A DNA stretch of 46,416 nucleotides. It comes from Candidatus Nomurabacteria bacterium (GTDB taxonomy: Bacteria > Patescibacteriota > Minisyncoccia > Phycocordibacterales > UBA9973). Of the stretch, positions 43,066 through 45,919 are shown piece by piece; position 1 is the first letter of the stretch, and each line of letters begins with the position of its first letter. Both the position numbers and the translations under genes were made by a program. The stretch lies in assembly GCA_943356675.1 (NCBI GenBank), contig CALRFQ010000007.1, positions 1-46,416 of the forward strand, read 5' to 3'. The notes under the pieces were generated by a model. It was not told the origin of the DNA and searched no databases. It saw nothing but the letters and a program-made list of their open reading frames with translations.

Positions 43066-43198
43066 GGTGCAGGGAATTTCTCGGCTTACCGCCGCAGGTA
43101 CTTTTCTAATTGCAAAGCAATACAGAAAAGTCTTTCGAATCCCTGACGCGAGCAAAGCAGTTTGCTCGCTCGCCCCTCGAAAAACTACGTTTTTCTTG
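43066..43198 (-). mobile_element. tRNA-3'-end-associated palindromic element P (after tRNA-Pro)
   Basis: Contains GCAAACTGCTTTGC, TCGAAAGACTTTTCTGT and AGAAAAGTACCTG shared with element G; ends in a duplicate of the tRNA-Pro 3' end (TCCCTGCACC). Confidence 0.75.
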
Positions 43199-43271
43199 TC
43201 GGGGTGCAGGGATTCGAACCCTGAGTCACCTCTTCCCAAAAGAGGCATGTTAGCCGTTACACCACACCCCG
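43199..43271 (-). tRNA. tRNA-Pro (TGG)
   Basis: CGGGGTGTGGTGTAACGGCTAACATGCCTCTTTTGGGAAGAGGTGACTCAGGGTTCGAATCCCTGCACCCCGA; no encoded CCA. Confidence 0.95.
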
Positions 43272-43722: not shown

Positions 43723-43767
43723 ATTTATTCGTTACACATGTAACAATAACCTTAAAATTCATAATTG

Positions 43768-44162: not shown

Positions 44163-44233
44163 GCGGGATTGGTTTAGTGGTAGAACACGTCCTTGCCAAG
44201 GATGAGACAGGAGTTCGATTCTCCTATCCCGCA
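44163..44233 (+). tRNA. tRNA-Gly (GCC)
   Basis: GCGGGATTGGTTTAGTGGTAGAACACGTCCTTGCCAAGGATGAGACAGGAGTTCGATTCTCCTATCCCGCA; no encoded CCA. Confidence 0.95.
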
Positions 44234-44363
44234 CTCTTTATACATAACCCGTAAGGGATAGGAAGCAAACTGCTTTGCTTCCGTAGGTGAATCGAAAGAC
44301 TTTTCTGTGCTATAAGCCAGAAAAGTACCTGGGTCTGTAAGGGCCGATTCTCCTATCCCGCAC
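44234..44363 (+). mobile_element. tRNA-3'-end-associated palindromic element G (after tRNA-Gly)
   Basis: Bounded by the 19-bp direct repeat CGATTCTCCTATCCCGCAC (44216-44234 and 44345-44363); internal hairpins GGAAGCAAA-CTGC-TTTGCTTCC and ACTTTTCTG...CAGAAAAGT. Confidence 0.85.
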
Positions 44364-44374
44364 AAAAGTTTCTT

Positions 44375-45919
44375 ATGAAACAACTAAAAATAAATAAAGG
44401 AAATATCCCTTCATATGTTACACATGTAACGGAAACGCTCGAAAAGGCTGGTTTCGAGGCTTTTCTCGTTGGTGGTTGTGTTCGTGATCTAATCATCGGC
44501 AGAACTCCTAAAGACTGGGATATTACTACAAACGCAGTGCCAGAAGAGATAATGCCCTTATTCAGTAAGACTATATATGAAAACACCTTCGGTACAGTAG
44601 GTGTAGTAATCTACACAGATGAGATGGGAAACGTTACACATGTAACACCTGAAGCCACAGAAACAGATAAAATAGGCCTAAAAACAAACATTATTGAGGT
44701 TACACCATATAGAAAGGAAGGCAAATACTCCGACAAACGCCATCCCGACGAAATTTCCTTCTCAAAGAGCATAAAGGACGACCTAATGAGACGTGATTTC
44801 ACAATAAATGCTTTAGCTTACGGAGTTTCACAGGATAGTCTGATAGATGAATATAAAGGACAAGAGGATATAAAGGACAGAGTCATAAAGGCCGTGGGAG
44901 ATGCTGATGTTAGATTCCAAGAGGATGCACTGCGTCTTTTGCGTGCGGTGAGGTTTTCCACAGAATTAGATTTCGCAATTGAAGGGGAGACACTTTCTGC
45001 AATTTACAAAAATGCAGACCTTTTAAAAAATATTTCTTCAGAAAGAATTCGTGATGAATTTACAAAAATTATTGATAGCCCAAACAGTGCACGTGGTGTG
45101 GGAATACTTGCCAAACTTGGATTACTCCAATATATAGTCCCAGAACTAGAGGAGGGTATAGGCTGCCACCAAGGTGGTGCACACAAGTACGATGTGTTTG
45201 AGCATTTACTCGGAGCACTACAGCATGCGACAGACAAGAAGCTTTCAACCACACTCAGACTTTCTGCACTCTTTCACGACATCGGCAAGCCTCGCACAAA
45301 GAGAACTCCAAATAACAAGGCCAAGCCCACATTCTATGGGCATGAAGTAGTCGGGGCGCGTATGACGGACAAAATTATGAACCGCCTGAAGTATCCGAAG
45401 GATATAATTGAAAAGGTGGTAAAGCTCATTCGCTACCATATGTTCTTCTCCGACACTGAGCTCATCACGCTTTCTGCAGTGCGTCGCATAATCGCAAATG
45501 TAGGTGCCGAGAATATCTGGGACCTAATGACAGTCCGAGAATGCGACCGTGTGGGAATGGACAAGACCGAGGCTCCATACCGCCTGCGTAAATACCACGC
45601 CATGATCGAGGAAGCACTTCGTGATCCTATCTCTGTGAAGCAACTGAAAGTGGATGGCAATTACCTCATGAACGAACTCAAAATAAAACCAAGCCCACGC
45701 ATGGGCTGGATGCTAAATGCACTACTTGAAGAGGTGCTCGATGACCCAAAGAAAAATGAAATAGAATATTTGGCTAGTAGAGTAGGGGAGTTTGAAAATC
45801 TTTCCGATGCAGACCTCCGCGCACTAGGTGAAAAAGCTAAAGAGAAGAAAGAAGAACTTGAGGAAGAAGAAATAGCACAGCTGCACAGCAAGCATGGAGT
45901 AGGGAGTAATAAGAAATAA
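44375..45919 (+). CDS. cca: CCA tRNA nucleotidyltransferase with HD domain
   Basis: AFLVGGCVRDLIIGRTPKDWDITTNAVPEEI...RRDFTINALAY...RFQEDALRLLRAVRFSTELDF...LSALFHDIGKPRT. Confidence 0.96.
   Translation: MKQLKINKGNIPSYVTHVTETLEKAGFEAFLVGGCVRDLIIGRTPKDWDITTNAVPEEIMPLFSKTIYENTFGTVGVVIYTDEMGNVTHVTPEATETDKIGLKTNIIEVTPYRKEGKYSDKRHPDEISFSKSIKDDLMRRDFTINALAYGVSQDSLIDEYKGQEDIKDRVIKAVGDADVRFQEDALRLLRAVRFSTELDFAIEGETLSAIYKNADLLKNISSERIRDEFTKIIDSPNSARGVGILAKLGLLQYIVPELEEGIGCHQGGAHKYDVFEHLLGALQHATDKKLSTTLRLSALFHDIGKPRTKRTPNNKAKPTFYGHEVVGARMTDKIMNRLKYPKDIIEKVVKLIRYHMFFSDTELITLSAVRRIIANVGAENIWDLMTVRECDRVGMDKTEAPYRLRKYHAMIEEALRDPISVKQLKVDGNYLMNELKIKPSPRMGWMLNALLEEVLDDPKKNEIEYLASRVGEFENLSDADLRALGEKAKEKKEELEEEEIAQLHSKHGVGSNKK

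Follow-up and report, generated by a model that had tools for sequence, protein, structure and literature searches.

Short palindromic elements behind the tRNA genes of Patescibacteria carry inverted arms that match the host tRNA

The window (the whole stretch of 46,416 nt that was analysed) carries, behind its tRNA-Gly(GCC) gene, a member of a widespread Patescibacteria repeat family with inverted arms that match the target. Each element carries a mirror-image copy of the end of its own tRNA, so something keeps rewriting the elements to match the host gene. The reading to which we give about an even chance is a palindromic, non-autonomous DNA element that has the 3' ends of tRNA and tmRNA genes as its insertion sites and whose arm is re-matched to the local tRNA by hairpin-templated copying. 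Within this reading the insertion is shown, whereas the copying of the arm is what we infer.

The 3' end of tRNA-Gly(GCC), CGATTCTCCTATCCCGCAC, is present in exact copies at 44216 and 44345, with a spacing of 129 bp. The original prediction had placed the repeated 19-nt end at 44345-44363 and inverted copies of it at 44255-44263 (GGGATAGGA) and 44283-44294 (GTAGGTGAATCG, one mismatch against the exact reverse complement GTAGGAGAATCG); all of its coordinates are correct. As it had also stated, the intervening stretch has no ORF of its own that reaches 80 aa, hence the element (~130 bp) contains no integrase gene, and in the folding that it had proposed as a check the stretch proved far more stable than shuffles (z = -4.4). 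It had missed that the inverted copies match whichever tRNA lies upstream and that the hairpin at 44261-44282 splits them exactly at the acceptor/T-stem boundary. Rfam searches at the element loci returned convincing matches to tRNA and tmRNA only. The features of the two elements in the window are the following.

44163-44234, plus strand: tRNA-Gly(GCC), the intact host gene (ARAGORN, Rfam)
44216-44234, plus strand: direct repeat copy 1, from T-loop position 56 to just past the tRNA 3' end (exact 19-nt repeat)
44235-44254, plus strand: linker or loop between the tRNA and the antisense arm (sequence, comparison with relatives)
44255-44263, plus strand: antisense acceptor arm, GGGATAGGA (sequence; match to the own tRNA family-wide)
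44261-44282, plus strand: hairpin hp1, GGAAGCAAA-CTGC-TTTGCTTCC, at the acceptor/T-stem boundary (compensatory changes in 7 of 9 pairs, 100% paired, 22 elements)
44283-44296, plus strand: antisense T arm, GTAGGTGAATCGAA (match to the own tRNA in 91 of 91 family members)
44299-44326, plus strand: core hairpin P2 (ACTTTTC..GAAAAGT), with GAAAG before and ACC after (invariant in the alignment; pairs counted)
44331-44345, plus strand: core hairpin P3, loop UGUAA (alignment, fold)
44345-44363, plus strand: direct repeat copy 2 of the tRNA 3' end (sequence; in G014, what follows copy 2 of this locus is alignable with the empty G007 site)
43198-43271, minus strand: tRNA-Pro(TGG), host of the second element of the window (tRNA search)
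43066-43195, minus strand: second element, with linker hairpin 43195-43179, hp1 43171-43148, antisense T arm and P2 43147-43097, and a degraded sense copy 43076-43066

Read on the tRNA strand, the elements consist of the tRNA, a linker, the antisense acceptor arm, hp1, the antisense T arm, GAAAG, P2, ACC, and P3 with the loop GUA(A). A sense copy of the tRNA 3' end follows P3 in part of the copies only. The linker position is occupied by the terminator-like hairpin of the tRNA in many relatives, and most linkers have such a hairpin plus a T run ahead of the arm. Among the 22 aligned elements hp1 has compensatory changes in seven of its nine pairs and every cell is paired, which provides the covarying helix expected of a structured RNA; P2 is invariant and therefore gives no covariation evidence. 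In a larger set hp1 has 951 Watson-Crick and 17 G.U pairs, few G.U for stems so variable, and its loop is CTGC in 83 of 107 detected hairpins. In related elements P2 and P3 are replaced by other modules. A second module type (GCCGGAG..GAGGCGGGGTCGCG..TTGTGACC) has the same arrangement at tRNA ends (L207, L209, L216, L199, L200, L035, L259), is present in distant Patescibacteria as well, and may be a separate family.

The genome from which the window comes is 719 kb, 98.5% complete and of the Paceibacteria type; its element counts derive from searches and extracted stretches. The window sequence found three further matching places in it, and 18 hits with E no higher than 1 came from a covariance model trained on 22 related elements. 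About 15 element loci are present, all directly 3' of a tRNA gene; the hosts are Gly(GCC), Pro, Gln, Lys, Arg (two), Ala, Trp, Ser (four), Tyr, Leu, and Glu. The model matches 54 of 61 relatives (up to 30 matches per genome) and, more weakly, 20 of 290 genomes sampled across the phylum (Patescibacteria). A same-strand tRNA gene lies close upstream in 13 of 17 extracted stretches, mostly weaker distant matches; three others have no upstream tRNA (L248, L249, L250) and in L246 the tRNA is ~150 nt off. The exact core pattern is present in at least 116 stretches from GTDB species genomes, nearly all labelled Paceibacteria-type or unnamed bacteria; one stretch labelled Rickettsiales is a 7-kb low-coverage contig, and this label is probably a binning error. 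Among the matches listed are 131 distinct exact-core elements, of which 91 have a same-strand tRNA no more than 150 nt upstream (~2% expected by chance), with hosts of 36 anticodons. The other 40 include tandem copies, contig edges, decayed tRNA ends, and tRNAs interrupted by group I introns (e.g., L128). The same core thus recurs behind other tRNAs of its own and many related genomes, which rules out a chance arrangement; the original prediction had asked for this search and had named absence of the core beside other tRNAs, or a simple tandem duplication, as its refutation. Elements are also found behind tmRNA genes, at three loci (L015, L151, L034). The 3' end of tmRNA is tRNA-like, and the target is therefore the T arm plus acceptor end rather than tRNA function as such.

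The tRNA-Gly(GCC)-cca locus is filled in the genome of the window and in G014, and empty in G007, G017, and G012, which are the orthologous empty sites that had been proposed as a check. The G014 sequence that follows the second copy can be aligned with what immediately follows the tRNA in G007, and GATTCTCCTACGCCGCACAT (20 nt) is the segment duplicated. Behind tRNA-Arg at the same gene, both occupied and empty sites occur for another element built on this general plan (GTCGG...GGGGTCGCG). The insertion is real: ~20 bp are duplicated, beginning in the T-loop and reaching beyond the 3' end. Since both flanks of the insert carry the stretch between T-loop position 56/57 and a point shortly beyond the tRNA, the gene remains whole. 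In 35 of 91 elements there are exact direct repeats of 14 nt or more, most of which begin at tRNA position 56 or 57, with a variable right end; a clean downstream duplication is absent from many elements. At three loci (L028, L067, L256) whole elements stand in tandem, each unit closing with the tRNA 3' end, as if the downstream copy had served as a new target or had recombined with the first copy.

The gene after the Gly element (44375-45919) looks, from its sequence, like that of a CCA-adding enzyme (tRNA nucleotidyltransferase). Among same-genus relatives whose locus is complete, nearly all have such a gene directly 3' of tRNA-Gly or tRNA-Arg. The end of the gene in the window (residues 458-513) recurs elsewhere in the genome as a second, partial copy, 89% identical (G000:C5:672-839). 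A 14-bp palindrome, GTTACACATGTAAC, occurs at 43731, 44417, and 44633 of the window, three copies within 1 kb where shuffles predict none, and the related palindromes GTTACACGTGTAAC and GTTTCATATGAAAC are found at the start of the cca gene in relatives. These palindromes resemble parS-type ParB sites.

In all 91 elements the antisense T arm matches the tRNA of its own locus more closely than it matches other tRNAs, and in 83 of 91 the same holds for the antisense acceptor arm. Watson-Crick pairing with the own tRNA was found in 1011 of 1092 T-arm cells, a count to which positions 54-56, invariant among tRNAs, contribute no information. An antisense T arm (at least 11 of 12 matches) is present no more than 160 nt downstream of 143 of 336 tRNA genes in the sampled loci, a fraction biased by the choice of part of these loci for their elements; none was found upstream and none in shuffled sequence. 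In whole genomes the numbers are 11 of 38 tRNAs for the genome of the window, 4 of 42 for G017, and 0 of 37 for G038, in which the covariance model detects no element either. Where the acceptor stem of the tRNA contains a G.U pair, the 3' strand is matched by its exact reverse complement in 12 arms, and 2 arms reproduce the 5' strand; the arm therefore reflects the 3' half of the gene, and a plain copy of the acceptor 5' strand, as left by a decayed second tRNA, was rejected on this count. The acceptor part of the downstream copy has been lost in 50 of 91 elements, so that a tRNA-like fold maintained by this copy is not required. In these 50 the acceptor arm still matches its tRNA at 6.34 of 7 positions, versus 4.21 for other tRNAs (chance) and 5.94 in copy-keeping elements.

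The palindrome often extends through the trailer into the terminator hairpin, with up to 23 perfect pairs, and the extensions together have 645 Watson-Crick and 17 G.T pairs. The terminator extension is not significantly longer in elements that have no downstream copy (p=0.29), which gives no support to a simple clock of palindrome growth. Plain fold-back copies that have no hp1 occur at L040, behind Gly(TCC), and at L088, behind Leu. Mismatches of the G.T kind (G.T on the tRNA strand) exceed those of the A.C kind in hp1 (14 vs 3) and in the T arm (22 vs 10), a mild and weak asymmetry that hints at selection on the RNA of the tRNA strand.

The copies have spread inside genomes, from tRNA to tRNA. 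The similarity of core loops is 0.548 between different tRNAs of one genome and 0.441 between the same tRNA of different genomes (p=5e-6; 0 of 2000 label permutations); because of shared ancestry the elements, whether of one genome or of related ones, are not independent, which makes these p-values optimistic. Cores up to 98% alike may have wholly different arms, as in L069 (Glu) and L152 (Pro) of different genomes.

Under the favored reading the arm would not be carried along but remade on site. Together with the element, the tRNA 3' half, the trailer, and the terminator hairpin would make up an imperfect inverted repeat, and a switch of strands at the terminator hairpin (intrastrand template switching, i.e. 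quasi-palindrome correction) would copy the tRNA sequence into the arm. The same process may keep hp1 almost purely Watson-Crick while its sequence drifts. Template switching is documented to create and maintain hairpins, in RNA hairpins (PMC8794818). It would explain in one step both the arms that fit each new host and the near-perfect palindromes with little G.U. Template switching alone leaves unexplained the site of hp1, its conserved loop, and the first entry of the core into a new tRNA. In a tRNA the D and anticodon arms branch off at this same acceptor/T-stem boundary that hp1 occupies, and a tRNA-like shape may therefore be of importance. More tentatively, and with somewhat better than one chance in three, the family could be a self-retargeting mobile element, whose noncoding core rebuilds a target-matching arm from any tRNA-like gene with no encoded enzyme; if so, one such family could colonise nearly every tRNA and tmRNA gene of a genome.

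Searches for an integrase, a reverse transcriptase, or a RAYT link identified no enzyme and no transposition intermediate. One family profile, RVT_1, had no match in the genome of the window or in several element-rich relatives such as G005, G036, G039, and G050. Viral carriage was rejected, as no exact core match is present in IMG/VR contigs. Genes of RAYT-like (Y1) transposases are present in 40 of 61 relatives, viz. 39 of 54 element-bearing and 1 of 7 element-free genomes, a comparison that is confounded by phylogeny. The flanks of eight RAYT loci gave no significant covariance-model hit and carry different hairpins, and RAYT was rejected as the mobiliser. In these loci (L232-L239) the Y1 genes are flanked by genome-specific perfect hairpins of their own, apparently ordinary REP-type repeats. 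Template switching, which needs no encoded enzyme, is in keeping with these results for RVT_1, RAYT flanks, and IMG/VR.

Of the competing explanations, the one given most weight, while still judged unlikely, is a functional cis RNA: read-through past the tRNA would let the arm pair with the tRNA 3' half or with the downstream copy and so control tRNA maturation or supply, selection on the RNA keeping the complementarity. The original prediction had offered, as its alternative, a transcribed RNA that could pair with the tRNA 3' half or mimic it, and the pairing would follow if read-through occurs. In predicted folds of read-through RNAs the strand of tRNA positions 61-72 pairs mainly with the arm in 86 of 90 (mean 0.86, cloverleaf 0.04), and the strong covariation of hp1, the excess of G.T over A.C on the tRNA strand, and the survival of arms after loss of the downstream copy point the same way. 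Against this explanation, elements are patchy at orthologous loci and between genomes, the terminator-like hairpin and T run before the arm in most linkers mean that it may rarely be transcribed, G.U pairs are very rare for RNA stems so variable, arms take A opposite U70, where G would pair too, and harm would be expected if an essential tRNA had its 3' half tied up. A retroelement-like origin, in which the paired 3' end of the pre-tRNA terminator hairpin self-primes reverse transcription as far as the T-loop and the resulting cDNA, with the antisense arm, is inserted, would account for a palindrome with its turning point at the terminator hairpin and its end at the T-loop, for the fold-back copies at L040 and L088, and for target duplications of variable length. 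It is less probable still, as it leaves hp1 inside the arm unexplained and the RVT_1 profile found no match in the genomes listed above.

That the element integrates at a tRNA 3' end and restores the gene, as the original prediction had proposed by analogy with tyrosine-recombinase islands, is borne out by the empty sites and by recurrence at many tRNAs; the analogy itself fails on arms that change with the tRNA, the lack of an integrase, and the 36 anticodons, so that the interpretation was partly supported overall. The direct repeat from the T-loop to past the 3' end, the intact tRNA, and the empty sites would suit a miniature island or satellite integrated by a tyrosine recombinase. The range of hosts, with arms matched to each, and the IMG/VR result argue against it, and it is considered very improbable. 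We know of no inverted target-matched arm of this kind in attachment sites. Plain tandem duplication of the tRNA 3' end, with no element involved, retains practically no probability: a direct repeat is present and whole units are repeated at L028, L067, and L256, but a shared core recurs behind unrelated tRNAs in many genomes, which refutes it, and the empty sites lack the whole unit.

Rfam and the searchable literature (subscription papers lie largely outside it) contain no description of such elements or of target-rewritten arms, and the family is apparently undescribed. A LOOT RNA (RF03000, 67 bits) at L131:6900-7029 (minus strand), in a Paceibacteria-type record, was rejected as the element, being ~5 kb away and unrelated. 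The family makes testable a change of target by a noncoding element that has no guide gene, template switching as an engine of retargeting, and the effect of antisense tRNA ends behind tRNA genes on tRNA supply in reduced genomes. The elements can also mislead the annotation of tRNA-like ends and attachment sites.

Tyrosine-recombinase islands and satellites likewise target tRNA 3' ends, restore the gene, and have flanking direct repeats and empty sites. In contrast to their one or few fixed attachment sequences, the present elements (insert ~110 bp, no integrase) have an inverted target-matched arm that differs per tRNA, across 36 anticodons. MITEs of DDE transposons are defined by terminal inverted repeats of fixed sequence and by a short target duplication whose length is constant, whereas the outer arms here are variable host-tRNA sequence and the duplication varies in length. 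REP/BIME repeats with RAYT are also short intergenic palindromes with no ORF and with tandem copies, but the present arms match tRNAs, and the RAYT genes at the eight loci are not flanked by the element palindrome. Rickettsia palindromic elements (RPE) were reported in protein-coding ORFs (PMC2635572); they too are short palindromic repeats spread through small bacterial genomes, whereas the present elements sit behind tRNAs and copy the target sequence. A palindrome known from one genome, placed ~10 bp 3' of about half of its tRNA genes, shares this position but is a single fixed short motif that is not matched to each tRNA. Hairpin formation by template switching (PMC8794818) similarly creates and corrects near-perfect inverted repeats in one step, but is a mutational process and not a mobile element, and no description of it covers tRNA ends in the present manner. 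The known kinds are insertion at tRNA ends and short palindromic repeats, and the arms rewritten for each target are, as far as the literature is searchable, the new part, a feature undescribed for tRNA islands, MITEs, and REPs.
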